Shown here one piece after another: positions 1 to 43,302 of a stretch of 43,302 bases of DNA. The position numbers and the translations under genes are program-made. The notes beneath the pieces are model-generated. The model was not told where the DNA came from. It worked only from the letters and a program-made list of their open reading frames with translations, and made no database searches. Source of the DNA: a virus; the IMG/VR virus record IMGVR_UViG_3300022223_000010, positions 1-43,302 of that record; one strand, given 5' to 3'. Positions within the stretch are counted from its first letter, which is position 1. Each line of letters begins with the position of its first letter.

Positions 1-99
1 AACCGGAAACCGCTCCCGGAGGATGCCGATCCGCCGGTACGAGGGACGGAAGTCGTGCCCCCAGTCGGAGATGCAGTGCGCCTCGTCCACCGCGATGAG
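1..99 (-). pseudogene. recQ: recQ fragment, interrupted by the prophage
   Basis: Read on the minus strand from base 99 to base 1, the sequence gives 33 residues including [15 protein letters not shown], followed by RPSY and an arginine-rich stretch. This is the RecQ-family helicase motif II (Walker B, DEAH) and the conserved WGHDFRP element after it. The gene continues off the left edge. On its 5' side the RecQ reading stops abruptly at 99: upstream bases (100 onward) encode no RecQ motif and begin a repeated sequence found at the ends of the element. Intact RecQ has about 130 residues before this point, carrying motifs 0, I and Ia. I infer that the prophage inserted here and split the gene; the other half should lie beyond 43302. 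Confidence 0.8.
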
Positions 100-247
100 T
101 GTCATGCAATGCGAAAAGGAGAGGGGGCTCAATGCAATCAGGACCCAGGAATCAGGCGATTTCCCCGGACCAGTGTCATGCAATGCGAAAAGGAGGGGGG
201 GCTCAATGCAATCAGGACCCCGGAATCAGGCGATTTCCCCGGACCAG
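99..247. repeat. Tandem duplication of about 74 bp at the prophage left end
   Basis: Bases 99-172 and 173-247 are nearly identical; the second unit has one extra G in a G-run and one C/A difference. Each unit contains one TGTCATGCAATGCG motif and one AATGCAATCAG motif, so the duplication doubles the putative transposase-binding sites. It lies immediately inside the left end. Confidence 0.9.
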
Positions 248-443
248 ATCGGGTACAAAGTGGGTCCAAAACGGACCACCCCCCTCAGCATCCGGTCCGC
301 TACGCTTCCAGATCGGCGCGGTTTCGGCCCAGGCGAGACCGAAATTCGGTGGGCGCTCTTCCGAGCTCCTGGATGTCCAACCTGAGGGCTAGTTGACGTG
401 CGGTGGGCTGTGAGACTCAAATGTCACGCGATGCGAAAGGAAA
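100..443. mobile_element. Left end of the Mu-like prophage (att-L, transposase-binding repeats)
   Basis: The interval starts with TG, as Mu-family ends do, directly at the point where recQ is broken. The motif TGTCAYGCRATGCGAAARG occurs three times (100, 174 and, more diverged, 422). AATGCAATCAG occurs at 131-141 and 205-215 and again, inverted, at 43277-43287. Repeated sites in opposite orientation at two ends are expected for MuA-type transposase binding. An interrupted inverted repeat (GGTCC/GGACC around AAAAC) lies near 260-276. No gene is supported between 100 and 552. The exact end and the 5-bp target duplication cannot be confirmed without the right flank. Confidence 0.65.
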
Positions 444-552
444 GCGACTCGATAACGCGAACGACTCCGCAGTTCTTCTCCGCACTACTCTGCTCGTCGC
501 ACGCGCAGCGCGCCACCCTTTCGTGTGCGGCAACCGTGAGACAGCGGCCACC

Positions 553-963
553 TCAGAAGGGCAGATCCGTTCCCTCGTCTGCATCAACTGCCCCAGGCGG
601 GTCAACCTCGCCCTCGCCTCCAAGCGCCTCGAGGATGCTGTCGAGGGCGGCCTCCACTCCCATTGCCTGCCGGCGAGCGGCTTCATAAAGCCGAACTAGC
701 ACCACGTACGCACCGTTCATCACTCGACTCAGGTCCGAGTCGCTCACTTCTTCGATCAGTGTTCCATCATCGTCGAAGATTCGTACGAAGATATCGGATT
801 CGTTCTGGTAGCTATCACCCGGTCGTTGGTCAATTCTGACGGCGTAGGTTGGGAAGGATGCCTGGAACACACCATCCTCAGAGGTCCGTTCCCAAAGGTC
901 GGTCCGCTGCTCGGTGACATTCGCCAGTCTAGTGACGAGAGCAGCCATCTTTTCGTATGACAT
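553..963 (-). CDS. Cassette protein of unknown function (136 aa)
   Basis: I do not recognise this protein. It is acidic, with a central segment rich in Asp and Glu that looks like alternating strands (residues about 40-75), followed by a helix and an acidic tail. No signal peptide, membrane segment or metal motif is visible. It starts at an ATG only 5 nt after the stop of the upstream gene at 969-1487, so the two are probably translated from one mRNA and form a two-gene unit. It is the last gene of the cassette array before the prophage left end. The downstream side (about 445-550) carries only a weak attC-like sequence. Confidence 0.6.
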   Translation of the reverse strand: MSYEKMAALVTRLANVTEQRTDLWERTSEDGVFQASFPTYAVRIDQRPGDSYQNESDIFVRIFDDDGTLIEEVSDSDLSRVMNGAYVVLVRLYEAARRQAMGVEAALDSILEALGGEGEVDPPGAVDADEGTDLPF

Positions 964-968
964 CGCCT

Positions 969-1487
969 CTAGTCCCCTCTCGCTCGTAGGGCAGACATTA
1001 ACTCGGTCAGCGTATCGAGTTGGGTCGTAATGATCCCATTCATGCGCGGCACGCTAGGCTTTGGGCCATCCGGTGCTGCCAAATACTTCTCCACCTGTTT
1101 CTCCATGCTCGCAAAGTGCTGAATCGCGGATTGAATCTGAGAGAGCTGTACCTCCGTCAGCGACGGTCCTGACGCCTTGATCCGGATCAGGCTGCGCCGC
1201 AGTACGTCATAGCGCTCAGGGAGGAGTTGCCACGTCTCCAGTCGATGGAGCCGCTTGACCTCCGCCATAACGGCAAGAGTCTCGGATAACGCGGTCGATA
1301 CGTCGAACCGTGTGAGCCTACCTCGGAGTTCCGCCGCAGCATCTCTCGCAGCTTCTGCGGCTCCTTTCGACCGAAGCACCGCCGCAATAGTGAACCAGAA
1401 GCCCGCCAAGGACACCCCCAGCCCGACCACGCTGGCGATGTCCCCATAGTTGGTGGGTATCCACTCAGTTATCGCAGGAAGATCCAT
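969..1487 (-). CDS. Single-pass membrane cassette protein, unknown function (172 aa)
   Basis: The protein has one clear hydrophobic segment at about residues 17-38 (GLGVSLAGFWFTIAAVL). A charged, mostly helical cytoplasmic region follows and looks coiled-coil. It resembles, in layout only, small N-terminally anchored proteins in accessory and defence loci; no family is recognised. It begins shortly after the attC-like element at 1505-1609 (in minus-strand order) and is followed after 5 nt by the gene at 553-963. A membrane protein plus a small soluble acidic protein in one cassette suggests a functional pair, but that is inference. Confidence 0.65.
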   Translation of the reverse strand: MDLPAITEWIPTNYGDIASVVGLGVSLAGFWFTIAAVLRSKGAAEAARDAAAELRGRLTRFDVSTALSETLAVMAEVKRLHRLETWQLLPERYDVLRRSLIRIKASGPSLTEVQLSQIQSAIQHFASMEKQVEKYLAAPDGPKPSVPRMNGIITTQLDTLTELMSALRARGD

Positions 1488-1504
1488 GTTCCATCACAGT
1501 GCCG

Positions 1505-1609
1505 GACAAACGGTTCGCAATTCTGCTGCACGGCCTATCAGCATACTGCCCGCGCAGGAGCGCGCACCACCAGTCACCTCGTGACAGCAGGAACTGCTTG
1601 TGATTAGAT
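1505..1609 (-). repeat. attC-like element 1 (after the thermonuclease gene)
   Basis: On the minus strand the element begins with an ATCTAAT core (1609-1603) and ends near GACAAAC (1505-1511). It contains the shared GTGGTGCGCGC centre and the right arm GCCGTGCAGCAGAATTG. The two arms can pair imperfectly (TCCTGCTGTCACG with CGTGCAGCAG), leaving an unpaired base as in integron attC sites. Both cores deviate from GTTRRRY/RYYYAAC. It aligns over its length with the elements at 2615, 3241 and 4103. Confidence 0.65.
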
Positions 1610-1629
1610 GGTAGCCCACGAGTGCACTC

Positions 1630-2478
1630 CTATCTGCAGTTGCCAGCTCGGAACTCCGCAGGTAGGCACGCAAAGGCAGAGACCGACCATAGCCCTGCTC
1701 CGGCGGCCTCGGCTACCTCTGAAGAGCTTCTATACGTCTCTACGTACTTGACGTTCGGCGGGTATACCGACACCACCGCCAACCCCCTTCGCACCATTTC
1801 TTCGTTGATGCTTTGGCCAACTCCATCGTACAGGTAGGCCAGTACCCGCCCATACCGGTCTTCATGCTCCACGTCGAGTTCCACCTGGAGCGTAGAGCCA
1901 ACTTGAGCCATGGACTCAAGCCCTTCCTTCGCAACGGCACCAAACGGGCCCTGCCCCATTTCCGGCGCGTCAATCAACAAGAGTCTGATCCGCCGCCCAT
2001 CTGAGCAGTCTAGCGTGTCACCATCGACGACAGCACTCACGACGCAGCTATTCTCAGACGACGAACCTGAAGCGACGAGGGATTCTTTCGGAACGTTGGA
2101 TGAGTCATTCGATGCTGCTGGCCCGGAGCAGCCCGCACTCTGCGACCGAGTATAGCCTGCCGCATGTGCGTCAGCCCTCGACTGAAAGAACCGGAGATTG
2201 GAGCGGGCGAGACTCCTCCACGCAGAGCAACCGACCCAGTAGTAGACCCGGCCCCGCGAGGAAGCCACATACTGTGCGCCTTCTGGAATTGCGATGGACG
2301 ATTCCGTCGGGGTAGCCGCTCGCGCCGTGCCACTTCCCACGCGACACGTTCGGTTCCGGGCTATGCATGTGTTACCGCAGGGCTTTCCTGTGCGGCACAC
2401 TCGTTGTGCTTCACCGTGGGAAACCGAAATCAAGGAGAGCGTAGCGACGAAGACTGCATATCGGAGTACCCGAATCAT
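1630..2478 (-). CDS. Secreted thermonuclease-family protein (SNase-like, 282 aa)
   Basis: The C-terminal half is a staphylococcal nuclease-like (TNase) domain. It contains VVDGDTLDC, then RIRLLLIDAPE and later EHEDRYGRVLAYLY, which hold the calcium-binding Asp residues, the catalytic Glu in DAPE and both catalytic arginines. The family cleaves DNA and RNA with calcium. The start at 2478 gives a signal peptide (VLRYAVFVATLSLISVSHG) with cleavage before EAQ, and GGAG sits upstream; the longer 2532 start lacks this. A cysteine-rich segment follows (residues about 25-50). The middle has a C-W-R-S...F-F motif resembling metal-binding Ada-like modules often fused to secreted nucleases. It is followed by the attC-like element at 1505-1609, so it is a single-gene cassette. 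It may act in nutrient scavenging or against foreign DNA outside the cytoplasm. Confidence 0.85.
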   Translation of the reverse strand: MIRVLRYAVFVATLSLISVSHGEAQRVCRTGKPCGNTCIARNRTCRVGSGTARAATPTESSIAIPEGAQYVASSRGRVYYWVGCSAWRSLARSNLRFFQSRADAHAAGYTRSQSAGCSGPAASNDSSNVPKESLVASGSSSENSCVVSAVVDGDTLDCSDGRRIRLLLIDAPEMGQGPFGAVAKEGLESMAQVGSTLQVELDVEHEDRYGRVLAYLYDGVGQSINEEMVRRGLAVVSVYPPNVKYVETYRSSSEVAEAAGAGLWSVSAFACLPAEFRAGNCR

Positions 2479-2614
2479 GGCGATCTCCTGGCGGGGGGCT
2501 TCCGAGTCCAACGGACTAGCAACACACAACACTCACATAGACCCACCCGCAAGGGCTTCATGTCGCCACCACACCTGGAAGACGCCATTCGGATGGAGCA
2601 TTGCTATTCACACC

Positions 2615-2716
2615 ATCTATCGGCTCGCGATTCTGCTGCACGGCCTACATGCATATTTCGCACGGATACCGTGCGCCACTACTCCAACCCGTGTCAGCAG
2701 CAATTGCTGGTTAGAG
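2615..2716 (-). repeat. attC-like element 2 (after the 169-aa gene)
   Basis: On the minus strand it opens with CTCTAAC (2716-2710), which also supplies the TAA stop codon of the gene at 2711-3220. The left arm CAATTGCTGCTGACACGGG faces the right arm GCCGTGCAGCAGAATCG; pairing leaves an unpaired base, the hallmark of attC. The outer right core is degenerate (GATAGAT instead of GTTAGAT). Length is about 102 bp. Confidence 0.75.
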
Positions 2717-3220
2717 AGCGCACCCCGGTGTCGCGATCCGTTCTGCAACCACGGGGTGGAGTCGGCAGGTATTTGCTTCTCGGGCGAAGACCTGGAGAAC
2801 GGCGACAAGGTCATTCGCCAGCGCGGGAATGTCCCATCCCCGTCCACCCTGACCTTGGGCGATGCGGCTGGAGGTAAGGTGCGCCAACTCTTTGTTGCTG
2901 CGATGCCGTGCCCGCTTTAGGGCACTTGTTAGGCCGGGCCGAACGGTCGTCCATTTCTCGTCCAGAAAGTCGTCGGCAACGACGTCAGTGCGTTGAGGCT
3001 TCTCGCAGTATAGAAACTCGAGAAGGTTTCTGAGGTGAAGTACCGCGGATTCGAGTACCACGTTGTTGAGGATCCGAGTTGCGTTGGAATCCGATGATCC
3101 GATCCGCCCTTGAGCGATGAGGCCCGTGAGATCAAGAAATAGGTCGACCTCGTAGAAGACGTGATCGCCAGAATAGTTGTAGAGGAACTCGTCCGAGTAT
3201 GGTCGGCTCTCGTTCTCCAA
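2711..3220 (-). CDS. Cassette protein of unknown function (169 aa)
   Basis: I do not recognise this protein. It looks all-helical and soluble, with aromatic residues in the first 30 positions (YNYSGDHVFYEVDLF) and a central segment ESAVLHLRNLLEFLYCE. The composition and the RNLLEF segment recall HEPN-like or other helical-bundle accessory proteins, but no R-x4-6-H motif can be assigned with confidence. The TTG start at 3220 is chosen because a strong purine-rich ribosome-binding site (AGGGAGG) lies just upstream. The stop codon lies inside the core of the attC-like element at 2615-2716, common in integron cassettes where the gene runs right to the recombination site. Confidence 0.65.
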   Translation of the reverse strand: MENESRPYSDEFLYNYSGDHVFYEVDLFLDLTGLIAQGRIGSSDSNATRILNNVVLESAVLHLRNLLEFLYCEKPQRTDVVADDFLDEKWTTVRPGLTSALKRARHRSNKELAHLTSSRIAQGQGGRGWDIPALANDLVAVLQVFAREANTCRLHPVVAERIATPGCAL

Positions 3221-3240
3221 CCCGCCCTCCCTTTTACGCT

Positions 3241-3341
3241 TTCTATTGGTTCGTAATTCTGCTGCACGGGCTACATGAATTCACCGCGCGCTACCGCGCG
3301 CCACATTCTCAACCCGTGTCAGCAGCAATTGCTTGTTGGAC
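3241..3341 (-). repeat. attC-like element 3 (after the lipoprotein gene)
   Basis: On the minus strand the first core is GTCCAAC (3341-3335), a full match to RYYYAAC. The arms AATTGCTGCTGACACGGG and CCCGTGCAGCAGAATT pair except for one extra base in the first arm. A GC-rich internal hairpin (GCGCGCGGTAGCGCGC) sits between them. The far core is degenerate (reads AATAGA). Length is about 101 bp. Confidence 0.8.
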
Positions 3342-3389
3342 AGTGCGTGGAGAATCGACACCATGAATTCCGATGCCTTCACACATTTC

Positions 3390-4064
3390 CTACTGGCCCT
3401 GGCACCGGCCAATCGCTGCCGCATCTCCAGCAAATAAGTCTCTACATCGCTCACGTGGGAACGCTCGTCCCACAAATGAGTCCGTGAACCAGCCGACGGT
3501 CCCATTTACGACCGACTGGACCTGCAGAATCTGCCGCCGATCTCTTTCGACGACATTCCTCAGAGTAACGACGGCACCCTGGCACGAGAGTCCTTGGTCA
3601 GCGCGTCCATCGCCGGACAGGCGGCCAATGACGCGTCTGAAATCGCTGGACTCCCATAGGTTCACGACCGACAACTCGAGACGACCATTCTCACACCCGG
3701 TAACGTGAAACGCGTCCCCGATCCGTATTAGCCGACCGGCCACACGAAACGGAGGCTGCTGATCAGTCAACTCGCCTTGTTGAACGAACCCAAGGGTGTC
3801 GTAGGTCGGTCGCGGATGGTACACAGCCACCCAACCGTCTTTTGCCTCCGTTCCCGCCAAGACCTTCGTTTGACCCCCAAGAGTCTCCATGGTCGCCGAT
3901 GTCGAATCTGGGGCTCCGCGAAGTACGGTCGTGCTGACAGTCCAGCGGGCTCCTCGGGGTGGTAAGGCGATCTCGTGCCCATCGGCGGTGTCATTACGAT
4001 CATCCGCAGACTTGGGGGAACACGCCGCGAGAGCCACGAGCGTCGCCACCATAATGACTCGCAT
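3390..4064 (-). CDS. SH3-like lipoprotein (224 aa)
   Basis: The start at 4064 follows a GGGAGG ribosome-binding site and gives a lipoprotein signal, VIMVATLVALAACS, with the cysteine expected to be lipidated. Two regions (residues about 40-110 and 135-205) have the rhythm of bacterial SH3-like domains, each ending in a DGWVAVYHP- or GTVGWFTDSFV-type segment. Four cysteines in the second half may form disulfides. It is a single-gene cassette between the attC-like elements at 4103-4204 and 3241-3341. A surface or periplasmic role is likely; the ligand is unknown. Confidence 0.75.
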   Translation of the reverse strand: MRVIMVATLVALAACSPKSADDRNDTADGHEIALPPRGARWTVSTTVLRGAPDSTSATMETLGGQTKVLAGTEAKDGWVAVYHPRPTYDTLGFVQQGELTDQQPPFRVAGRLIRIGDAFHVTGCENGRLELSVVNLWESSDFRRVIGRLSGDGRADQGLSCQGAVVTLRNVVERDRRQILQVQSVVNGTVGWFTDSFVGRAFPRERCRDLFAGDAAAIGRCQGQ

Positions 4065-4102
4065 CGGAACCTCCCTGGTTGATACACTCCCACTGAAGCA
4101 CT

Positions 4103-4204
4103 GTCTAACGGCTTTCAATTCAGCTGCGCGGGCTACCAGCTTACACCCGGCGCGAAGCGCAGGCCACCATGTACTTCCGCGTCAGCTGCAATTGAGTGTT
4201 AGGC
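4103..4204 (-). repeat. attC element 4 (after the nuclease gene), best-preserved copy
   Basis: Both outer cores are perfect: GCCTAAC (4204-4198) and GTTAGAC (4109-4103) on the minus strand. The arms CAATTGCAGCTGACGCG and CGCGCAGCTGAATTG are complementary apart from two extra bases in the first arm, the classic attC asymmetry of unpaired bases. It lies 17 nt after the stop of the gene at 4222. Length is 102 bp, typical of chromosomal integron sites. Confidence 0.88.
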
Positions 4205-4221
4205 GGTGCACCTCCCGCACG

Positions 4222-5271
4222 CTACTCGGCGTCGCGGGCCACTCCGTCGAGCTGGTCGAGCATCTCTTTGGGTACCCGAAGACTCAGATCCTCCGGCCGC
4301 ACCACTTCGTCAAGGTCAGGCCGGGGGTCGACTGGCCCGAGCCCCTCAAGGTGGAGTAGGCCGAAAGCCACCTCTCCTGGGCGCAAATCGTGGGTCGTCA
4401 CCCAATCGGGCGCCTGCTCCACGGCCTTTCCGCCGGTGAGGTCCACGCCCTTCAGGTGAAACTGCCCAGATGGGCCAACGCGGACTCGACGCCGAAGCCA
4501 ATCATATGCGCCAGTGGTCGCGTCGAGCTCGATCGGTTGTACATACCAAGAGCCACTTACAGTCACATTGGCGTCGATCTGGGTAACCTCGACCGGCGTC
4601 TCACCAACAACCATCTCGACGGGCCGGACAAGGTGACACGCATCCACAAAACTGCCACTCACTATCGGATTCATTCCCAGCATGGCCATCACGCGATGAC
4701 AGATCCAGTTCCCGATCGGTAGCCCCTGATAAGAGATCGAGTCGAACGGAACACCAAGCTCTATCGGCTCAGGCCCGGTCAATGAGATCGTCAGGTTCTC
4801 GACGGTAAGGCGACGGATGTACTGGTCCTCCTTCACGAGGAAGCGGACGCGTTCGTCACCCTCCTTAAGGACTGACATCATCCCGATTCCCACCCGGGAT
4901 GCTTTCCGGAGCGCGAAGCTCGTGAAGCCTGCATTGCTGCAGATCACGGCCCAATCGACCTCTAAGTCTCGACGTTTGGACTCCAAGGCGTCGACCAAAG
5001 AGATGCCCACCCGACCGGTGGATCGCGGGTTGTAGTCCTTGCACTCCACAAGGACTCGGCGCTGGCGACCATCTACCGTGCCGGTGACATGCACGTCCCT
5101 GTCCCGCCTTCCATCTGGACCCTCGACCCACGTACCCTCGATCACCGTGGCACCTGGGTCCAGGACACGGAGGACCTCAGCTACGACTTGTTGATACGGC
5201 GTCCCAGTTGCCGCTGACTTCTTGCGCTTCTTTCGGCGCCCTTGCTTACGAGAGCTTCGGCGACGGCTCAT
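4222..5271 (-). CDS. Mrr-like restriction endonuclease-fold protein (349 aa)
   Basis: Residues about 15-150 look like a PD-(D/E)XK nuclease of the Mrr_cat/RecB type: a conserved Glu in VIEGTWVEG, the Asp of RRDRDVHV, and the RVLVECKDY strand that supplies the E-x-K pair, followed by a helix. The basic N-terminus (SRRRSSRKQGRRKKRKK) should bind nucleic acid. The rest, about 200 residues, is beta-rich and unassigned. The ATG at 5271 is chosen because the protein becomes coherent there, though no strong ribosome-binding site is visible; a GTG at 5367 would extend it into the recombination core. It is the first gene of the array, right after the half-attC at 5369. A defence role is plausible but not shown. 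Confidence 0.75.
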   Translation of the reverse strand: MSRRRSSRKQGRRKKRKKSAATGTPYQQVVAEVLRVLDPGATVIEGTWVEGPDGRRDRDVHVTGTVDGRQRRVLVECKDYNPRSTGRVGISLVDALESKRRDLEVDWAVICSNAGFTSFALRKASRVGIGMMSVLKEGDERVRFLVKEDQYIRRLTVENLTISLTGPEPIELGVPFDSISYQGLPIGNWICHRVMAMLGMNPIVSGSFVDACHLVRPVEMVVGETPVEVTQIDANVTVSGSWYVQPIELDATTGAYDWLRRRVRVGPSGQFHLKGVDLTGGKAVEQAPDWVTTHDLRPGEVAFGLLHLEGLGPVDPRPDLDEVVRPEDLSLRVPKEMLDQLDGVARDAE

Positions 5272-5368
5272 CGAAATGAACCGGCAGGTAGGTAGCCCCT
5301 GGTGGACGAACGCCTCGCCGCAGAGTGGTTGGCTCCTGCAAACATGATCAGTCCGGTGATGGTGCACC

Positions 5369-5396
5369 GCCTAACTTCTGACTCTACTGCAGCAAT
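5369..5396 (-). repeat. Half attC-like element at the cargo/phage junction
   Basis: A perfect core GTTAGGC (5375-5369, minus strand) is preceded by TGCAGTAGAGTCAGAA. This matches 9 of 11 positions of the TGCAGCAGAAT right arm of the complete attC-like elements. The other arm and core are missing: immediately beyond lies the 3' end of the methyltransferase gene. It marks the boundary between the cassette array and the phage early operon. Confidence 0.55.
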
Positions 5397-5420: not shown

Positions 5421-6203
5421 TCAGCTACGCCGCAGCCGGCCCGCCGTCACCTCACAGTATCCCTCGTCCATCTCAAATCCAACAACTTTCAGCCCGAGCG
5501 ATCGAGCTGCGACCAACGTGGTACCGGATCCCGCGAATGGATCGAGCACCACGCCGCCGGGCTCGACGACGCCGAGCAGCTCGCGCATGAGCTCCGTGGG
5601 TTTCCCGGTGATGTGGTGCTTGTCGTCCTGGGTGACCCGCGCCTGAAACACGCCGGGCAGACAGGGCGCCGCCCGTTCGAGGGGCATGGCGCCGGCGGAC
5701 CCCCAGGCGACGTATTCACACTGGGCCCGGAACCGGCCGCGCTGCGGCCTGGACGCGGTCGTCTTGTCCCACTGCACGATCCCGCGCCACGTCCACCCAC
5801 CGGCCTGCACGGCGTCCGTGAGGGCCGGCAGCTGCCGCCAATCGGAGAACACGAGGATGGGGCTCCCCGGCCGGGAGAGGCGTAGCGCCTGGGCCAGCCA
5901 TACGCTGCACCAGGTGATCCAGGAGCGCTGGTCCCGGTTATCCCCCGCGAACCCGGGCCGCTGCTTCTTCTGCCCGGATTGCACGTACTTCTCTTGGGGG
6001 GTGCGGGTGGTCCTGGACGGCGCATGGGTTCCGCCGCTCGAGTAGGGGGGATCGGTCACGACCGCGTCGAAACACGGCTCGACCATCTTGGTGAGGAGAT
6101 CCAGGACTTCGCCGTGGTAGAGGGCGACCTGGTCGTCAGAGTAGTAGGGATCAACTCCCGGGATCGTCGGGAGGGAGTGTACTGGGGTTGTGAGACTCGG
6201 CAC
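5421..6203 (-). CDS. DNA methyltransferase, N4-cytosine/N6-adenine type (260 aa)
   Basis: The motif order is catalytic TDPPY at residues about 51-54, then the AdoMet-binding DPFAGSGTT at about 221-229, the beta-class arrangement of DNA amino-methyltransferases. The length is usual for phage orphan enzymes. The GTG start at 6203 has GGAG eight bases upstream; the upstream gene (ends 6151) overlaps it. No partner endonuclease is adjacent, so the likely role is modification of phage DNA to avoid host restriction, as Mu does with Mom by other chemistry. It is the last gene of the leftward operon, next to the cassette array. Confidence 0.88.
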   Translation of the reverse strand: MPSLTTPVHSLPTIPGVDPYYSDDQVALYHGEVLDLLTKMVEPCFDAVVTDPPYSSGGTHAPSRTTRTPQEKYVQSGQKKQRPGFAGDNRDQRSWITWCSVWLAQALRLSRPGSPILVFSDWRQLPALTDAVQAGGWTWRGIVQWDKTTASRPQRGRFRAQCEYVAWGSAGAMPLERAAPCLPGVFQARVTQDDKHHITGKPTELMRELLGVVEPGGVVLDPFAGSGTTLVAARSLGLKVVGFEMDEGYCEVTAGRLRRS

Positions 6204-6528
6204 GCTGCAGACTCCGGTTAAGGGCACGAACCAATGCCGTCTCGAGGTCTTCTCGATTCGACACGATTTCCACTCGGTGGTCGTCGCCCTTCGGGTCTGG
6301 CTCCACAATGAGGCGGCACGGCGCACGGCCGCGTCCGGCGTTATGAACGATCGCCACGGGCCCGCTCGTTCGACTGAACGGCTCTCTGATCATGCGCCGA
6401 CACACAGGACACTTGATGTGCGTGATGAGCTCTGATCGTAGGCGCATATAGCAAAGAAGGGCGAGCACTCCTTGACGGAGTGATCGCCCCCGGGCGGTTA
6501 GGCACTTCACAAGTTTTCCGAGCAGCAC
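6151..6528 (-). CDS. Small two-cysteine protein of the early operon (125 aa)
   Basis: I do not recognise the family. The protein contains one CPVCRRM motif (residues about 40-46), half of a zinc ribbon, within an otherwise mixed sequence. The GTG start at 6528 is preceded by GGAGG at ideal spacing. Its end overlaps the start of the methyltransferase gene, consistent with translational coupling in the operon. Confidence 0.5.
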   Translation of the reverse strand: MLLGKLVKCLTARGRSLRQGVLALLCYMRLRSELITHIKCPVCRRMIREPFSRTSGPVAIVHNAGRGRAPCRLIVEPDPKGDDHRVEIVSNREDLETALVRALNRSLQRAESHNPSTLPPDDPGS

Positions 6529-10840: not shown

Positions 10841-11065
10841 TCACGACCTCGGCCGCAGCGTCGAGACGAGCGTATGGGGCACGATGTCGAGCCCTGCGCG
10901 GTCCAGCGCGCACATCACGTCGAGGGCGGCGCTGAGCTGGTCCCGCGCTACGGGGCCCTGCTCGGCCACGGCCGCGGCGATGATGCGCTGGATGCGGCGC
11001 GTCTCCGGGGTGCCCGCCCGCCGGATCCGCGGATCCGGTCCGTCCGTGAGTCCGATGACGATCAC
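10841..11065 (-). CDS. Small early-operon protein (74 aa)
   Basis: Unrecognised helical protein. The GTG start at 11065 overlaps the ATPase stop (GTGA), giving a protein beginning VIVIGLTDGPDPRIRRAG. The upstream ATG at 11104 would overlap the ATPase by 40 bases and is less likely. Confidence 0.5.
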   Translation of the reverse strand: MIVIGLTDGPDPRIRRAGTPETRRIQRIIAAAVAEQGPVARDQLSAALDVMCALDRAGLDIVPHTLVSTLRPRS

Positions 11066-12207
11066 AGGCCGAGCTCCTGGAGCTGGTCGGGCGACGACGC
11101 CCATACCGCCTCCACCTCTTCCTCCGACACGCGCTCCGCCCCGCGGCGCGCGGCGATGTTCATCGCGGCCGTCGCGGCGTTCCCGATGAGCACCGGGTAC
11201 TGCTGGTCATGCACGCCGAGGCGGTCCTCGAGCGCCTGGAGGCCGTCGTCCTCGAACACGCTGGCGACCTCGGCGTTGACCCACTCGAAGCGCCGCGCGA
11301 CGTACTGCGCGACGTGCCCCTTCATGGGCCCGAGCGTGATGAGCTGACAGCGGATGATCGCCTCGCGCAGGTTGTAGTTGCGCTCGGCATCGAAGCGCGC
11401 ACGCAACTCCGTTTGCCCGACGAGCACGACACCGAGCAGCTGCGCGTAGCCGTGGCGCAGCTCATGGAACCGCTTGAGGTCCTTGATCGTGTTGTGCGGC
11501 AGCTCGTGGGCTTCGTCGATGACGAGGCAGACGCGCTGCCCCTCTTCGTAGCGGTGCACGAGCACCTGGGCGGCGAGCGAGTCGCGCACGTTGGTCATGC
11601 GCGGCACCGGGTACTCGGAGAGCTGGCGGATGATCTCGGCCGAGATGTGGGCGGCACTGAGCTTTCTGCGCTCCACGTTGGCCGGTGTCACGCGCACGAT
11701 GGATGCCTGGTCGCTCGCGCGGTGCAGCGCGCTGTCGAGCAGCGTGGTCTTCCCGCTGCCCGGCTCGCCGGCGAGCGCGATGAATCCCGACGTGAGACAC
11801 GCCTGGCGGATGCGCTCTTCGATGAAGCGGTGCGACGGCGGCAGGTAGAGCTCGTTCGGTTCCGTGCCGCCGCCCGGGAGCCGACGCATGATCGAATCGG
11901 GAGCGAATGGGTTACGGAACAGCCGGAACCGCTCGCGCGCGATCTCGCTGAGGTTCTGCCCTTGCATGCTTACCTCCGACGGGCTGGGCCCGTCCGCTGA
12001 GTTGTGAGGAATGAACAGGTCGGGAGTGATGGGCAGGCCGCGCTCCTCGAGGACGCGCGAGACGTGGGCCCGCCCGTCCCCATTGCCGAGCTCGCGTTCG
12101 CCCGTGAGGTAGCGCGACCAGCTGGTCTTGCTGTAGCCGAACCGGCGCTCGAGCTCCGCGGGCCCGACGCCGAGAGCCCGGAGCACTGCCATGACGCGCA
12201 GCGCCAT
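11062..12207 (-). CDS. MuB-like AAA+ transposition ATPase with N-terminal HTH (381 aa)
   Basis: An N-terminal HTH region (residues 1-60, LERRFGYSKTSWSRYLTGE) is followed by an AAA+ domain: Walker A GEPGSGKT at 147-154 and Walker B VCLVIDEAHE with D231 and E232, then the GQTEL sensor region. This matches the MuB / ExeA / TniB group, which binds target DNA and activates the transposase. The gene follows the transposase gene in the same operon, as A and B do in Mu. The HTH resembles the non-specific DNA-binding N-terminus of MuB. Confidence 0.9.
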   Translation of the reverse strand: MALRVMAVLRALGVGPAELERRFGYSKTSWSRYLTGERELGNGDGRAHVSRVLEERGLPITPDLFIPHNSADGPSPSEVSMQGQNLSEIARERFRLFRNPFAPDSIMRRLPGGGTEPNELYLPPSHRFIEERIRQACLTSGFIALAGEPGSGKTTLLDSALHRASDQASIVRVTPANVERRKLSAAHISAEIIRQLSEYPVPRMTNVRDSLAAQVLVHRYEEGQRVCLVIDEAHELPHNTIKDLKRFHELRHGYAQLLGVVLVGQTELRARFDAERNYNLREAIIRCQLITLGPMKGHVAQYVARRFEWVNAEVASVFEDDGLQALEDRLGVHDQQYPVLIGNAATAAMNIAARRGAERVSEEEVEAVWASSPDQLQELGL

Positions 12208-12843: not shown

Positions 12844-14499
12844 TTAGGCTCCCTCGACCTGCCTCTGCTCCTCCGGGCCGCGACCCGCGCGGCTCGTGAT
12901 CCAATCGTCGAGCTCGCGCTCGGAGATCTCTTTGCGGCCGGAGAACAGCGCCTTGAGCGCCGTGCGCTCGAAGTCCGTCGGCGGCGTGTGCATCACGCCG
13001 GCGCGCTGCGCGCGGTCCGTGGCCTTGCCGATGCGGATGAGCACCGGCGCGAAGTCGCGCTCGGACACCAGCGCCTCCGTCGTGGTCGGCCGGTACACGT
13101 AGCTCCGCGCGTCGCGCGCCACGCGGTAGTCGTGGACCGCGTGCGTGTCGATGTGGGACAGGTCGCGCTCCTGCAGCTCGCGCTTCTTCGCCACGGCCTG
13201 CGGGACCGGCGGTGTGTGGAAGTCGCCCGCCGTGTCCGGCAGCGCCTCGACCGCGTCGACCTCGTACTCCTCGCCGTCGATCACCACCGTGATCCTGCGC
13301 ATGTCCGCCTCGTGGTAGAGCACGAGGACCTTCTTCTTGATCTGGTCGACGAACGGCGCCTGGCGCGGCAGCTGGTACGTGTTCCCGTCGAGCTGGATCG
13401 AGACGCTGGGACTCACCCGCCGCTCGACCTCGCGCCGCAGCACCTTCGCCATGATCTCCGACGTCGGGAGCACCCGGATGCTCTGCGCGCTCAACCACCG
13501 CTCGAACGGGATCTCGTTCGTCTCCGAGTGGCGTCGGTTGTTCACGTACAGGAGGTGGCGGTACAGCAGCCGGTTGAGCTCGCTGAGGCGCGTCACCCTC
13601 TTCGCGCGCGTCGTCTTCTCGAACCCGTGCAGGATGAGACCCAGGGAACGCTCGACCTTGCCCTTCGCCTGGGCGTTGGTCTCGGCCTCCGTCGAGGGGT
13701 CGGCGAGCATGCGCTTGATCTCCAGGATCTCGAGCATGCGCGTCATCACCGCCGACTTCATCGCCGAGTCCTGGTCCGTGTAGATGCGCTCCGGGATCCC
13801 GAACGCCGGCCACTCGTCAATGCGCGGGCTGAACCCACGCATCGCGCGGATGATCAGGTCGCGCCACGCGAGCGCCGAGTTGCTCGTGTAGAACCGCGCC
13901 CAGCGCACCCGCGTGTGGTCGTCCACAAGACCGAGCAGCCAGATGCGTGGCTTGCCGTTGCCCGCCTTCGTCTTGTTGCGATGGACCGGGGCCTCGTATC
14001 CCACCGTGTCATCGGCGTCGATCCACCACGACTCCGCCGTCGTCGAATCCATCTGCCACAGGTAGCCCGGATACGGAGCCTCCCAGCGACGGTGCACCCG
14101 CAGGTCCTGCGCGTTGTGCCGGCGACTCACGCCCATGCGGCGCAGGTGGCGGCGCAGCGTCTCCGCGTGGACCTCGACCGCTTCGAGCCCCTCGGCCGCG
14201 CGGTTGGCGTTGATCGTGTCGATGGCCAGCTGCGCGTCGTAGTCGTACTGCACCACGAGCCCGGCCATGTCCTCCATCACGTCCCCCTCGAGGACGCGAC
14301 TCGCCCCGGCATCCGCGCGCTTCTGACGACCGCGGCCGACCTCGTCACGGATCGCACGGTAGACCGTGCTCCAGTGGCAGCCGAGCAGCGCGGCATGCTC
14401 CTCGCAGAACGGCCGGTACGACGCGCTCGCGTCGAGGCCCCGGGCCTCGTGCCGGAGCACCTCGCGCTCCTCGTCCGTGAGTTGGCGGCCGCGTGCCAT
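12844..14499 (-). CDS. MuA-like DDE transposase (551 aa)
   Basis: An N-terminal HTH-containing region (1-140) precedes an RNase H-fold integrase core (rve). The catalytic triad is visible: D151 in YLWQMDST, D242 in RIYTDQDSA and E283 in GKVERSL, with the D(40)E spacing. A C-terminal beta-rich region and a helical tail follow, the plan of MuA / TniA-type transposases (MuA 663 aa, TniA about 560 aa). It is followed by small genes and the ATPase. This is the enzyme that would join the phage ends to target DNA, both for integration and replicative transposition. The length is nearer to TniA, but the GemA-like, portal and capsid genes place it in a phage. Confidence 0.93.
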   Translation of the reverse strand: MARGRQLTDEEREVLRHEARGLDASASYRPFCEEHAALLGCHWSTVYRAIRDEVGRGRQKRADAGASRVLEGDVMEDMAGLVVQYDYDAQLAIDTINANRAAEGLEAVEVHAETLRRHLRRMGVSRRHNAQDLRVHRRWEAPYPGYLWQMDSTTAESWWIDADDTVGYEAPVHRNKTKAGNGKPRIWLLGLVDDHTRVRWARFYTSNSALAWRDLIIRAMRGFSPRIDEWPAFGIPERIYTDQDSAMKSAVMTRMLEILEIKRMLADPSTEAETNAQAKGKVERSLGLILHGFEKTTRAKRVTRLSELNRLLYRHLLYVNNRRHSETNEIPFERWLSAQSIRVLPTSEIMAKVLRREVERRVSPSVSIQLDGNTYQLPRQAPFVDQIKKKVLVLYHEADMRRITVVIDGEEYEVDAVEALPDTAGDFHTPPVPQAVAKKRELQERDLSHIDTHAVHDYRVARDARSYVYRPTTTEALVSERDFAPVLIRIGKATDRAQRAGVMHTPPTDFERTALKALFSGRKEISERELDDWITSRAGRGPEEQRQVEGA

Positions 14500-18391: not shown

Positions 18392-18566
18392 GCGCCCGTG
18401 ACACCCTGCGCATGCGGTTTACGTGCGCAGCGATCATACCCTCTTGTTAGTTCCTCGCTCGTCTCGCCGCCATCAATGTCCCGTAGATCTTCAGCCTGCT
18501 CTCGGGCGACACCGTTCGCCCACAAAGGGCCCTAGGCCCGCTCTTCACTCCAACCCGGAGGCAGCC

Positions 18567-19169
18567 ATGAAGTTCACTCTCCCGCTACTGGCTCTCAGTG
18601 GCATCGCACTCGCTGCGACGACGCCCCCCCCCTTGGCCGACGACCGACCGCTCTGCGAGATCGCTGACGAGTGGGCCCAGAACAATGTGGGCAACCTGCC
18701 GACCACGCTGGACGGGATCCTGTCCTACGACCGGACCTACCAGAGAGCCATCTTCAACAACTCTCCGAGGTCGACGCAGGTAGGTTTCTGGCGCGAGCAT
18801 CTGGGAAGGTTCGTTGAAACGCACAACGAACTCACTCTTGACCAAGCAAGCTTTCTGACCGGCTTGTCGGAGAACTTGGAGGTGTACTTCGATGCGGGTG
18901 ATGACAGGACCTCAGTGGAGGCATTGGAGGCCGACGCCCGTGAGCTCCTCGGCGACAAACTCGCGGCGGCCGCGATCGCCAACCTTGGCGAATCGAATCA
19001 GCTTTCGGTAGCAGCCGCCCCTGGTGGTTGTAGTTGTTCAGTAGGATCCGACTGGTGCACCGGTATCAATACTGACTGTCTGGCAGGGGGGTGCGATCGC
19101 ACCAGTAGTGGCTGTGGGACTCTGTGGCTGTTCAACTGCGACGGCAATTGCAAGTTGAATCCCACGTGA
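18567..19169 (+). CDS. Fulvocin C-like bacteriocin precursor (200 aa)
   Basis: The last 45 residues carry eight cysteines in the pattern CSCSVGSDWC...CLAGGC...SGCGTLW...CDGNC, close to fulvocin C from Myxococcus fulvus (CSCSxxSDxC ... GCGTxW). The start ATG at 18567 follows GGAGG; a signal peptide FTLPLLALSGIALAATT leads to a helical pro-domain (residues about 25-150). The cysteine-rich C-terminus is probably released as the active, disulfide-bonded peptide. It is an unusual cargo for a phage. The gene is followed by a 34-bp palindrome and a beta-propeller gene. Confidence 0.85.
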   Translation: MKFTLPLLALSGIALAATTPPPLADDRPLCEIADEWAQNNVGNLPTTLDGILSYDRTYQRAIFNNSPRSTQVGFWREHLGRFVETHNELTLDQASFLTGLSENLEVYFDAGDDRTSVEALEADARELLGDKLAAAAIANLGESNQLSVAAAPGGCSCSVGSDWCTGINTDCLAGGCDRTSSGCGTLWLFNCDGNCKLNPT

Positions 19170-19176
19170 TGTATAG

Positions 19177-19210
19177 TGAATGGAGGGAGGGGATCCCCTC
19201 CCTCCATTCA
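19177..19210. terminator. 34-bp perfect palindrome between bacteriocin and propeller genes
   Basis: TGAATGGAGGGAGGGGA is followed directly by its exact complement in reverse (17-bp arms, no spacer). It starts 8 bases after the bacteriocin stop codon and ends 18 bases before the GTG at 19228. It would form a very stable hairpin in RNA, without a T-run. It may stop or attenuate transcription into the next gene or protect the bacteriocin mRNA. Confidence 0.65.
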
Positions 19211-19227
19211 CCCAGCCGAGTTACCAT

Positions 19228-20247
19228 GTGAACAACGCTCTATTGGTCTTGATCACCGCTATTCAGGTCTGTCCACCTTGTACCGTGGAGTTCGCTCCGA
19301 GCGACACTCTCGGAAGCTTGGATGACCCGGCATCCGTAGGTCCACTTGCGGAAGTATTCCGGTTTGAGGACGGTCGCATCTTGATATCCTCGGAAACCTG
19401 GGGATCGATGGTGTTGACCTACGATGCGAACGGACATTATTCAGGTACGCTTGGCCGGGATGGGCAAGGTCCTGGGGAATTCTCCACAGCAGTTCGGTTC
19501 GTGCCCAGCCAGCGGGGTGTCGCAGTCCATGAACTTCGAACCCCTCGGGTTCACGAGTTTTCCGCCGACCTTGCGTTCCTTGATTCATTTTGGCTTCCCG
19601 GCGTCGGATGGAGTTTGGCACAGAAGTCCGACGGAGAGTGGTTGTCCGTGGCGTCACGGGTCCGTGGAGACTCAGTGGAGGTCGTGCATGTATTGTCCGA
19701 GGATGGGGAAGTGCAGTCCAGCTTCTATCATGTCCCCGCTGACGGAGGACTCGCGGAACTAGTGCACCGTGTCGCGGTAGACGACAAATCGCACGTGTGG
19801 CTGACGAGCCTGAACGGTGTCGTTCGAGTGTTCTCGGAGAGCGGCGTACTTATCGCAGATCATCTACTTCCAAGCCAAGACCTAGGGAAGCCGCTCCCTT
19901 TGCAGCTGGCTCCGGACCAGAGGCCCCCAGGGCAGATCATGGGTGTGGAAACCCATGGCGATGGAACCATATGGGTCTTCTCAGCTGAGCCAGACGCCGA
20001 CTGGAAGAAACCTCGGCTGGGAGGCCTGTTCGGAGTCCCATCACCTGAGGAGATTCACGACACTATTTTGTATGTGCTCCGCCTAACGGACGGTGGCGTC
20101 GAGGAAGTGGCCACTCAACGGTTCGACACCTTACTTCGCGGGCTCGGGAACGGTTGGGCCTACGACTTAGTCGACACGCCCGACGGTGACCGCAGAGTGC
20201 GCATCGGGAGCCTGACGTTGAAGCCATCATCCCTGTCATCCGGATGA
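19228..20247 (+). CDS. Secreted 6-bladed beta-propeller protein (339 aa)
   Basis: Repeating blades are visible, with the GRDGQGPGEF motif (residues about 75-84) that is characteristic of 6-bladed NHL-type propellers in several Gram-negative phyla, and later VGVETHGDGTIWVFSAE-like turns. The GTG start at 19228 gives a short hydrophobic leader (ALLVLITAIQVCPPC) with a cysteine suitable for lipid attachment. An ATG at 19180 lies inside the palindrome and is unlikely to be used. It directly follows the bacteriocin gene, so immunity, export or binding of the bacteriocin is possible, but this is inference. Confidence 0.7.
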   Translation: MNNALLVLITAIQVCPPCTVEFAPSDTLGSLDDPASVGPLAEVFRFEDGRILISSETWGSMVLTYDANGHYSGTLGRDGQGPGEFSTAVRFVPSQRGVAVHELRTPRVHEFSADLAFLDSFWLPGVGWSLAQKSDGEWLSVASRVRGDSVEVVHVLSEDGEVQSSFYHVPADGGLAELVHRVAVDDKSHVWLTSLNGVVRVFSESGVLIADHLLPSQDLGKPLPLQLAPDQRPPGQIMGVETHGDGTIWVFSAEPDADWKKPRLGGLFGVPSPEEIHDTILYVLRLTDGGVEEVATQRFDTLLRGLGNGWAYDLVDTPDGDRRVRIGSLTLKPSSLSSG

Positions 20248-23286: not shown

Positions 23287-25071
23287 ATGAGCCCGGCCGA
23301 TGACCTCGAACGCGCGCTCGCCGCGGCGCTTCCCGACGCCGAGCCCGACGAGGCGGCGGAGCTCGAGGCGGAGCTCGAGGAGATCCGGGCCGCGGCGCGC
23401 GCATACCTCGGACTCGCGGCCGGCACACCGCTCGGGGAGATCCAGGCCAGGTTCGCGCGGAGCCTGTGGGACTTCTGGATGTTCTTCTTCCCCGACTACC
23501 GCACGGACGAGCGGGGCGTCGAGGTCCCGGGCGCCGCGTTCCATGAGGAGCTCGCCGCCGAGCTCCAGCGCATCGTGCTCGACGGCCGGCCGGGTGAGGA
23601 GTTCGCGGCCGCGTATCCCCGTGAGCACGCCAAGAGCGTGTTCGCCTCGTTGGTCGACCACCTCTGGGCTCACGCGAATGCGCTCCGCCGCTTCGGGATC
23701 ATCTTCAGCGACACCGACTCCCAGGCGCGCGAGTTCCTCGACGACACGCGCGTCGAGGTCGAGACGAACGAGCGCCTCCAGGCGATCTACCCCGAGTTCT
23801 GCGAGTGGGCGCGCGAGCCGCGTGCGAACCGTCTCGCGTTCGGGAACGGGACCATCCTCATGTGCGCCGGCTCCGGCAAGTCGGTGCGTGGCGCGCGCAA
23901 GGGCAAGCAGCGACCGGACATGATCACGCTCGATGACATCGAGAACGACGAAGAGGTCGAGAACCCCAACCGGAGGAAGAAGAAGATGCGATGGTACAAC
24001 CGGGTCGTGAAGAAGCTCGGGCGCGCGGCGGTGCTGGTGATCGTCGGCACGATCCTGCACGCCGAGAGCTTCCTGGCCCAGAAGGTTCCGGACGACTCGT
24101 CGACCTATGCGGCGCTCGTCACCGAGCCCGTGAACCAGGAGCTGTGGAACGAGTGGGAGCGCGTCTTCCACGACCGTTCGCTCGCGGATTCCGAGGCGGC
24201 GGCGCGCGCGTTCTACGCCACGCACCAGGTCGCGATGGACGCGGGCGCCGAGGTGCTGTGGCCCGCGCGGTTCAGCCTGTACGAGCTCATGGTGGAGCGC
24301 GCCGAGGATCTCGCGTCGTTTCTCAGTGAGCGTCAGAACAAGCCGTTCGACCCGAGCGCATCGTGGTTCCCGGAAGACCGCATCACATGGAGGGCGCTTC
24401 GTCCGAAGTCTCCCGACATCGAGGAACTCCCGCCGGAGAGCGACATCATATTCTCGGTCGCGTTCTGGGACCCGTCGCGCGGCACATCCAAGGGGGACAC
24501 CAGCTCGCTCGTCCGACTGGATTGCTATGCTGACGGCAGCCGGCATGTCCGTGAGTCGGAGACCGACCGGATCCCGCCCGAGGCGGTGATGGAGTACGGG
24601 ATCGGCCTGCACAAGCGCCGTCCCTTCAACGTGTGGGGCGTCGAGAAGGTGGGCCTCAGCTCCTACGACGAGACGCTGCAGAAGCTCGGCACGCAACTCG
24701 GGCTCATGCTGCCCATCGTGCCGCACACGCCGACAGGCAACAAGGATCTCCGGATCCGCTCGATGCGTCCGGCGATCGTGGCGGGCCAGCTCACGTTCGA
24801 CGACGGGCTCCCGCTCGAGGCGAAGCGCCAGCTGAAGTTCTACGGCGCGGGTCACCCGAACGACGATTTCCCCGACGCGGTCGACGCGGCGAACAAGGTG
24901 GCCGACGAGTACCTGGCCGACGTGACGGCGGCGTCCGCGTCGCGCGACGCCACGGACGAGGAGCTCGCCCAGGACCGCTCCACCCTGCTGGGCCGCGCCT
25001 CGCTGCGGGACGAAGAGCCCGACTGGCCGCACCGCATGGCCGACCGCGTCGGCGCACTTCGCGCGCTCTGA
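23287..25071 (+). CDS. Terminase large subunit (TerL, Mu gp28-like, 594 aa)
   Basis: An ATPase domain with the unorthodox Walker A of Mu-like TerL (AYPREHAKSVFASLVDHL), a Walker B-like MITLDDIENDEEV, then a RNase H-type nuclease domain starting SVAFWDPSRGTSKGDTSS (first catalytic Asp) and ending in DDFPDAVDAAN. Length is usual. It cuts phage DNA during headful packaging and drives it into the procapsid. ATG at 23287 follows a GC-rich stretch of about 100 bp with a CCCGTTGCGCAACGGG palindrome. Confidence 0.9.
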   Translation: MSPADDLERALAAALPDAEPDEAAELEAELEEIRAAARAYLGLAAGTPLGEIQARFARSLWDFWMFFFPDYRTDERGVEVPGAAFHEELAAELQRIVLDGRPGEEFAAAYPREHAKSVFASLVDHLWAHANALRRFGIIFSDTDSQAREFLDDTRVEVETNERLQAIYPEFCEWAREPRANRLAFGNGTILMCAGSGKSVRGARKGKQRPDMITLDDIENDEEVENPNRRKKKMRWYNRVVKKLGRAAVLVIVGTILHAESFLAQKVPDDSSTYAALVTEPVNQELWNEWERVFHDRSLADSEAAARAFYATHQVAMDAGAEVLWPARFSLYELMVERAEDLASFLSERQNKPFDPSASWFPEDRITWRALRPKSPDIEELPPESDIIFSVAFWDPSRGTSKGDTSSLVRLDCYADGSRHVRESETDRIPPEAVMEYGIGLHKRRPFNVWGVEKVGLSSYDETLQKLGTQLGLMLPIVPHTPTGNKDLRIRSMRPAIVAGQLTFDDGLPLEAKRQLKFYGAGHPNDDFPDAVDAANKVADEYLADVTAASASRDATDEELAQDRSTLLGRASLRDEEPDWPHRMADRVGALRAL

Positions 25072-25093: not shown

Positions 25094-26521
25094 ATGAGCC
25101 TGCGCGAGCAGCTGGCGGACCGGTTCTTCGGCGACGTACTGGATCGGCGTGTGGAGGCACGCGTCGAAGCCCTGCGCGGCGCATCGAATCGCTCGCGGCA
25201 GGTCGAAGGGTTCCGCCGTCTCACGGACGTGAACCGCGACCTCAATCCGGTGACGCACGATCGCCAGCGCGAGATCGCTGTCTATCTATACACGTACAAC
25301 CCGCTGGCGCGCCGCATGCTCGAGACGATCCGCGAGTGGATCCTCGGCGAGGGCGCGACGGTCACGTCGCCGCATCCGCGCACGCAGGACTACCTCGACG
25401 GATTCTGGACGGACCGCGTGAACCGCTGGCCGATCCGGCTCTGGGAGCAAACGCTCGAGTTGTTCCTGATGGGCGAGCGGTTCTGGCCCGTGTTCACCAA
25501 CCAGTTCAGCGGGCTCATGCGCTTCGGCGTGACGGATCCGGCATCGGTCAAGGAAGTGGTGCTGGACCCGGACAACGTAGAGGTCGCCCTGGGCGTCGTG
25601 CTCAAGAGTCGCCCCGGCGTACCGGAGCGCCGCTACCGCGCCGTGCTCACCGCGGCCGAGACGGATGTGCTCACAGGACCCGGGCTGCGCGAATGGGAAG
25701 CGCTCACCGACGGCGAGTTGTTCATCTCGCGCATCAATCGGCTCTCGACGCAGAGCCGCGGGATCAGCGAGATCTTCAGCCTCGCCGACTGGCTCGACGG
25801 CTACGAGCAGCTGCTGTTCAGCATCCTGCAGCGCGAGCAGGCGAACGCCCAGGTGATGTGGGACGTCGAGCTCCAGGGCATGAGCGACGAGGACATCCAG
25901 AAGTGGCTCGAGACGCAGAGCTATCCGAAGCCGCTCTCGATCCGTGCGCACAACGAGAAGGTGAAGTGGGAGCTTCAGGGCCCCGCGTTCGGCTCGAGCT
26001 CGAACAACGTGGAGCACGCGCGCCTGTTCCGGAATCACCTGCTCGGCGGGATCGGCATCCCCGAGCACTGGTTCGGCGGTGGCGGCGACGTGAACCGCGC
26101 GACGGCGGCCGAGATGGGCACGCCCACCGAGAAGAGCCTGACGGCGAAGCAGCGCCTCGTGAAGAACATCATCGAGGAGGTCATCGAGGCCCAGGTCGCG
26201 CGCGGCATCGAGTACGGCGCGATCCCCGACGATGACGAGGCACGCGAGTTCCAGCTCGAGTTCCCCGAGCCGTCGACGAAGGATCTGACGAAGATCAGCT
26301 CGTCGCTGCAGCAGTTCGCCACCGGACTGTCCATCGCCGCCCAGGAGGGGTGGGTCGATGACGCGACCGCGGTGCGCGTCATGACGAGCCTGCTCCAGCA
26401 GACCGGCGTCGAGGCGGATCCGGAGGAGATGCTCGCGCGCGCCCAGGAGCAGAAGAAGGAGCGGCTCGCCGATGAGGCCGCGGCGGCCATGGACCGCCGT
26501 CTGCGCGTGGTGGGCACCTGA
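25094..26521 (+). CDS. Portal protein (DUF935, Mu gp29-like, 475 aa)
   Basis: The N-terminal VTHDRQREIAVYLYTYNPLARRM-like region, the central ISEIFSLADWLDGYEQLLFS (split as ISEIFSLADW and LDGYEQLLFS) and the C-terminal helical tail fit Mu-like portal proteins. The gene lies in the TerL-portal-F order of Mu-like phages. It forms the dodecameric channel through which DNA enters and leaves the head. Confidence 0.88.
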   Translation: MSLREQLADRFFGDVLDRRVEARVEALRGASNRSRQVEGFRRLTDVNRDLNPVTHDRQREIAVYLYTYNPLARRMLETIREWILGEGATVTSPHPRTQDYLDGFWTDRVNRWPIRLWEQTLELFLMGERFWPVFTNQFSGLMRFGVTDPASVKEVVLDPDNVEVALGVVLKSRPGVPERRYRAVLTAAETDVLTGPGLREWEALTDGELFISRINRLSTQSRGISEIFSLADWLDGYEQLLFSILQREQANAQVMWDVELQGMSDEDIQKWLETQSYPKPLSIRAHNEKVKWELQGPAFGSSSNNVEHARLFRNHLLGGIGIPEHWFGGGGDVNRATAAEMGTPTEKSLTAKQRLVKNIIEEVIEAQVARGIEYGAIPDDDEAREFQLEFPEPSTKDLTKISSSLQQFATGLSIAAQEGWVDDATAVRVMTSLLQQTGVEADPEEMLARAQEQKKERLADEAAAAMDRRLRVVGT

Positions 26522-30029: not shown

Positions 30030-30207
30030 GGGCGGGAGTGCGGCGCCGTGGATGGGCGGCGCCCCTCCCCCCGAATCCCCCCACCCCTGCGGGATGATGG
30101 CCAATGGAGAGCGATGGGGAACGCCCTTGCCCCGTCGTCCGGTGCGATGAACACCGGGCCCCGGTTCGACTCCGGCATCTCGCACTACACCACGACGCGG
30201 AGCACGC

Positions 30208-43208: not shown

Positions 43209-43302
43209 ATTGACCTGATCCGGAAAACGGACCGGCCGAGGATTCGGTCAGCCTAATTCAATGCAACAACGGATAGCTGATTGCATTCGCGCAGATGGAA
43301 TT
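43209..43302. mobile_element. Right end of the Mu-like prophage (partial)
   Basis: Non-coding. Contains TTCAATGCAAC (43257-43267) and CTGATTGCATT (43277-43287), the inverted copy of AATGCAATCAG found twice at the left end. A stem GACCG...CGGTC (43230-43249) may end late transcription. The terminal CA and the target duplication lie at or beyond the window edge. Confidence 0.6.

Follow-up and report, generated by a model that had tools for sequence, protein, structure and literature searches.

A cluster of integron cassettes as likely cargo of a Mu-like phage from Gemmatimonadota

The virus record IMGVR_UViG_3300022223_000010 (IMG/VR; 43,302 bases, analyzed in its entirety and referred to as the window) contains an array of integron-type gene cassettes near its left end. 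We consider it very likely that this array is a cluster of attC sites lacking integron integrases (CALIN) that rides as cargo on a Mu-like siphophage, whose lysogenic host is a Gemmatimonadota bacterium belonging to the species represented by the metagenome-assembled genome (MAG) JAOUPR01, hereafter G001. Four attC sites within 2.7 kb accompany four cassettes with no integrase nearby, a CALIN being defined by at least two attC sites spaced within a few kb and the absence of an adjacent integrase; intI with an adjacent attI site, the mark of a complete integron, is not present. Likewise, a search of the window for an integron integrase or a remnant of one returned nothing, in line with the first-pass annotation of this sequence, which had noted no integrase gene.

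attC sites and cassette ends

Four minus-strand elements of 101–105 nt, oriented with the genes and repeats of one another (families D1 and D2), had been proposed as attC sites. To score them, we used a covariance model (R1) trained on 17 attC sites, all from other genomes with integron integrases and none from the window. All four score far above background (67.6–100.1 bits, E values of 1e-15 to 1e-24), and the R1 scan of the window yielded no sites beyond them; a window scan at Rfam gathering thresholds gave no match. Covariation over 27 sites supports the stem, 8 of 21 stem pairs being changed on both sides, a value reached in none of 500 shuffles, and control pairings slid along the stem collapse to 23–34% paired cells. 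Three sites have in common an L'' arm of the form AATT-G-C(T/A)GCTG-A-C, in which two bases are extrahelical; this arm faces CAGC(A/T)GAAT(T/C), and attC4 harbors C and T at the two extrahelical positions instead. Single-sequence folding of the bottom strand, a check suggested by the first-pass annotation, is moderately unusual for three sites (z of -2.7, -2.7, and -2.5) but not for attC4 (-0.2), and alone provides weak support. The outer cores, described earlier as close to RYYYAAC/GTTRRRY, conform fully in attC1 and only partly elsewhere: attC2 and attC3 lack GTT in R', and R'' of attC4 is diverged. Judged by sequence and predicted structure, the four elements are integron attC sites.

The R'' box of an integron cassette is expected to pair with the 5' end of its own cassette. 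Across 18 cassettes of this family, positions 8–13 from the crossover give 84 own-end matches, whereas 20,000 permutations averaged 48 and never exceeded 69. For the window cassettes alone, the actual pairing ranks first among all 24 possible permutations. Own-end matching amounts to 15/15 in cassette 1 and 11/12 in cassette 2 and is weaker in cassettes 3 and 4, with decayed R' boxes; in cassette 4 the complementarity is present with a 1-nt shift. In the arrays L004, L002, and L006, complementarity between R'' flank and own 5' start spans 12–13 nt, extending past the 7-nt box.

The elements had been described as separating single or paired genes. Four cassettes are indeed delimited; the pair of open reading frames (ORFs) past the last attC, at 969–1487 and 553–963, is not closed by a convincing fifth site. 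A fifth attC after the gene at 553–963 was considered and could not be established, the only candidate being a stretch at 457–545, possibly a decayed site, with 9.5 bits. The cassette 1 protein had no homologue in 298 Gemmatimonadota genomes, in a search run without a positive control, and a candidate HEPN-like RxxxxxxH motif was spotted by eye in the cassette 3 protein.

Carrier phage and host integron

The minus-strand early operon encodes a MuA-like DDE transposase and a MuB-like ATPase, and the plus strand holds terminase, portal, capsid, and tape-measure genes. According to Pfam and PHROG profile matches, the window thus combines the DDE transposase, MuB-type ATPase, and late phage genes of a transposable phage, although its transposase is only ~24% identical to the nearest transposases of named phage records. 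The left flank stems from a host recQ gene, which is whole in G001; identity to window positions 1–99 is 100% and stops exactly at base 99, and the next best matches reach 86–92% and are mostly shorter than that to G001. As named by this recQ flank, the host species is that of G001. Because the recQ identity ends at base 99, the phage left end is placed at base 100, and the array (1511–5375) therefore lies between the left end and the early operon. The array is accordingly inside the prophage, as first proposed, with a host/phage junction and a left terminus common to a sibling prophage on one side and phage genes on the other. The left-end repeats, assigned earlier to 100–443, do exist, but consist of a 74-bp tandem duplication at 98–245 plus a third motif starting at 422, which is possibly a transposase-binding site.

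The sibling prophage was identified in one of 346 Gemmatimonadota genomes (G254), with a 68% identical MuA and almost complete collinearity of the structural genes. Window positions 100 and 174 match its left terminus, TGTCATGCAATGCG, and the prophage (G254:C85, L029 14912 to L031 16368) has TG/CA ends and a perfect 6-bp target duplication, CCTACT, on both sides. The insertion sites differ: recQ is interrupted in the window, whereas the sibling is flanked by a peptidase gene on one side and an ABC-transporter-like gene on the other. Alignment with the sibling places the right terminus of the window phage probably ~17 nt past the contig end. The first-pass annotation had advised searching related prophages for other cassettes at the same position; the sibling left-end zone does carry other cargo genes, yet harbors no attC and no integron. 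Since its content differs between the two phages, the left-end zone is a variable cargo site. One of the sibling cargo genes (L029 17466–18545) encodes a patatin-like phospholipase of the effector type found in cyclic-oligonucleotide-based antiphage signaling systems (CBASS; PADLOC 4e-69).

In the viral collection, no close phage relatives were recovered via MuA (as a single sequence or as an alignment), terminase, or left-end patterns. A MuB scan of the collection pointed at a 49% identical relative (L032), whose examined stretch lacks attC sites, and two attC patterns, one strict and one relaxed, searched across viral contigs gave a sole match (L011), attributed to chance.

The exact L''/L' arm-pair pattern matched entire arrays in G001 and in the alphaproteobacterial MAG G002, and in each of these two MAGs an integron integrase exceeds the cut-off of its family. 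The G001 enzyme scores 329 bits, so the intI gene that the first-pass annotation had suggested looking for elsewhere in the host genome is indeed there. The closest attC sites of G001 share 93% identity with window attC1. Together with the recQ flank, these sequence matches strongly support an origin of the cassettes from the host chromosomal integron, which had been raised earlier as a possibility. Cassettes have a GC content of 0.59 and a third-codon-position GC of 0.62–0.69, most phage core genes ~0.69 and 0.83–0.94, respectively; the G001 array contigs lie at 0.60–0.63. Sites of this attC family occur in 70 of 298 Gemmatimonadota genomes, and the sibling host G254 likewise contains an integrase with adjacent attC.

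The G001 integron is large and chromosomal, with ~40 attC sites spread over several contigs, well preserved on C15, C94, and C119 and decayed on C122; array loci include L081, L082 (G001:C122), L004, L002, and L072. At L012 (G002) and L066 (G254), the integrase gene is co-directional with the cassettes and the array lies past its 3' end, an arrangement unlike that of class 1 integrons.

Table 1. Features of the window; positions are those of the whole record, and R1 denotes the attC covariance model.
Feature	Position	Strand	Evidence or remark
Host recQ fragment	1–99	-	99/99 identical to G001:C120:10123-10221
Phage left terminus (TGTCATGCAATGCG...), including 74-bp tandem duplication (98–171/172–245)	100–284		Homologous to sibling left end G254:C85:14912-15025
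Third, diverged terminus-like motif (TGTCACGCGATGCGAAAGG...)	422–470		Sequence comparison
Sub-threshold attC-like stretch, not counted	457–545	-	R1 9.5 bits, E 0.45 in 7 kb; alignment
136-aa ORF past last attC	553–963	-	No family match
172-aa ORF past last attC	969–1487	-	No convincing family
attC4	1505–1609	-	R' GTTTGTC, R'' ATCTAAT, diverged; R1 67.6 bits
Cassette 4	1511–2620	-	Coding sequence (CDS) 1630–2478, SNase-type nuclease, N-terminal signal-like segment; PF00565 7e-19
attC3	2615–2716	-	R' GATAGAT, R'' CTCTAAC; R1 85.5 bits
Cassette 3	2621–3246	-	CDS 2711–3220 (169 aa), no family match
attC2	3241–3341	-	R' AATAGAA, R'' GTCCAAC; R1 79.6 bits
Cassette 2	3247–4108	-	CDS 3390–4064, putative lipoprotein; ribosome-binding site ahead of ATG
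attC1	4103–4204	-	R' GTTAGAC, R'' GCCTAAC, fully canonical; R1 100.1 bits
Cassette 1	4109–5374	-	CDS 4222–5271, Mrr_cat-type restriction endonuclease-like; PF04471 4e-5, above its cut-off
Array 5' junction, R box GTTAGGC	5369–5375	-	No attC half-site upstream
Phage DNA methyltransferase, last early gene ahead of array	5421–6326	-	PF01555 4e-27; phrog_67 3e-58
MuB-like transposition ATPase	11062–12207	-	phrog_296 1e-38; sibling copy 63% identical
MuA-like DDE transposase	12844–14499	-	phrog_310 4e-33, rve domain; sibling copy 68% identical
Large terminase	23287–25071	+	phrog_38 1e-68
Portal protein	25094–26521	+	phrog_10963 2e-35
Protease and major head protein	27672–29996	+	phrog_4523 1e-51
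Tape measure protein	33872–35875	+	phrog_1716 6e-50
Right-end region with terminal boxes (AATGCAATC, TTGCATTGA)	43220–43302

A second low-GC cargo zone is located at ~15.9–20.9 kb, where the sibling carries other genes. Within it, the plus-strand stretch 18423–20247 carries genes for a fulvocin C-related bacteriocin family protein (NF033852, 93 bits, above cut-off) and for an adjacent protein that weakly matches ScyF/NHL repeats (E 0.002). ARAGORN predicts a tRNA with a 4-nt anticodon at 30089–30185 (plus strand), in the gap separating the capsid gene from the following ORF; this is probably a false positive.

Entry of the cassettes into the phage

A GTTAGGC box, ~46 nt past the stop codon of the methyltransferase gene, marks the exact start of the array. 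The flank ahead of it was considered as an attI site and dropped, the attI ends of Gemmatimonadota integrons being different (mostly ...TAGTTAGG). At the opposite end, the last attC ends in GTTTGTC, and no R'' matching the sequence that continues from it was found. Since the array begins at the exact recombination point without an attC half-site or a recognizable attI, we infer that an integrase inserted it at a secondary site. In this scheme, cassettes would first have been taken from the chromosomal integron of the host; the host integrase would then have placed them, one by one or en bloc, in a secondary (attG-like) GTT site just downstream of the methyltransferase gene. The empty phage site would have read ...GTCAGAAG directly joined to TTTGTCCGG..., and insertion at its GTT would yield ...AGAAG / cassettes / TTTGTC..., a prediction that both array ends fit. 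Finally, the cassettes would be read from the phage early operon, and be copied and packaged in each round of replicative transposition. Such read-out is suggested by the common strand and by the absence of a visible promoter; as the cassettes are co-directional with the early operon and no terminator-like site was found between methyltransferase and array, read-through expression is likely. Confidence descends from the host-integron origin through integrase insertion to read-out and co-copying.

Several points weigh against this account. The window is a single metagenome contig, and the right terminus and target duplication of this phage copy fall outside it: only the left terminus is present, and a search for the duplication at the right end of the window found none. 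The four cassette genes are absent from G001 at the DNA level, where only attC sites match, although turnover of arrays or incompleteness of the bin would be expected to produce such absence. GTT is lost in two of the four R' boxes (AATAGAA and GATAGAT), so that some cassettes may be immobile. Finally, our searches found no relative with an empty insertion site and none is known, so that the insertion mechanism is a proposal. Host contig C122 shows similar R' decay, which may thus predate the move into the phage, and for the same reason R' decay was abandoned as a marker of time spent inside the phage.

The strongest competing explanation is that the array entered through recombination, illegitimate or homologous, between the phage and a cassette array of the host, for instance while the phage resided in or near the integron. 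Mu-like phages insert at many sites, host arrays are long and spread over several contigs, and the internal R' decay would fit transfer as a block; moreover, a similar motif-guided illegitimate recombination has been proposed for other phage CALINs (PMC9892861). We nevertheless hold this possibility to be somewhat unlikely, because the 5' edge falls exactly on the R box GTTAGGC (5369–5375), with a 15-nt match to its own R'' and no attC half-site beyond, a position at which a random break would seldom fall. Less probable still is a complete phage-borne integron that lost its integrase. CALINs can arise through intI loss (PMC8618304), but the window contains neither an integrase nor a remnant of one, the flank before the first cassette is unlike Gemmatimonadota attI ends, and the corresponding zone of the sibling has no attC or integron.

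Misassembly of host integron contigs with phage sequence deserves mention since attC arrays are repetitive and the G001 arrays break at contig ends. It is very improbable, as true phage sequence on both sides of the array would require two independent false joins, the cassette ends are intact and precise, and the G001 array contigs contain none of the cassette genes. That the elements are phage regulatory hairpins or terminators, an idea to which only the moderate folding z-scores lend support, is in practice refuted by the R1 scores, by their match to host attC arrays in sequence, structure, covariation, and spacing, and by the lack of such elements in the sibling phage.

Carriage of a CALIN as phage cargo bears on how cassettes leave sedentary chromosomal integrons, which are large cassette reservoirs. 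A single contig here links carrier phage, cargo, and a host species with its integron, and thereby makes a route testable. The contents of the left-end zone vary, with restriction-like and nuclease cassettes in the window phage and a CBASS-type phospholipase in the sibling. That Gemmatimonadota transposable phages are regular cassette shuttles, their left-end zone serving as a landing place for the host integrase, with read-out from the early promoter and multiplication and packaging at each transposition, is a speculative extension that we regard as unlikely on present evidence.

Comparison with known systems

The window phage resembles Mu, BcepMu, and MuM16-1 in its DDE transposase and MuB-like ATPase, its varied insertion sites, and the short target duplication of the sibling. 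As in the window phage, early genes of BcepMu lie on the strand opposite to the late genes. Unlike these phages, it belongs to a Gemmatimonadota lineage, its transposase is only ~24% identical to the nearest phage records, and it carries integron cassettes; the sibling duplication is 6 bp (CCTACT), whereas that of Mu is 5 bp. The G001 sedentary chromosomal integron is alike in attC sequence types, cassette end matching, and GC content, but has an integrase, ~40 attC sites, and different cassette genes. It has been noted that Gemmatimonadota have integrons and that CALINs can stem from off-target insertion (PMC8618304).

Insertion of cassettes into genomes at attG sites (Loot et al. 2024, as cited in PMC11023631 and PMC12901181) likewise involves cassettes at a non-attI GTT site, as far as those citing papers describe it; the window case is a proposed one and concerns a phage. 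Phage CALINs as such are already published: the sections of Qi et al. 2023 (PMC9892861) used here report that 21 phage genomes, of 10,705 surveyed, contain integrons or CALINs and that several phage attC sites recombine when tested with IntI1. The clusters described there are similarly integrase-free groups of attC sites, mostly in a single orientation. In those sections, Supplementary Table S1 aside, none of the carriers is presented as a Mu-like transposable phage; for the window phage, the host integron is identified as well. Shewanella M16-3, a CALIN prophage that was described in work on Mu-like prophages, encodes a phage integrase (PMC8541194). Compared with the sections of Qi et al. considered, the Mu-like transposable carrier is new. 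The window phage broadens the range of phage-borne cassette clusters to include transposable phages as well as Gemmatimonadota. Besides the transposable carrier, the additions are the naming of a host species together with its integron and the exact anatomy of the array.

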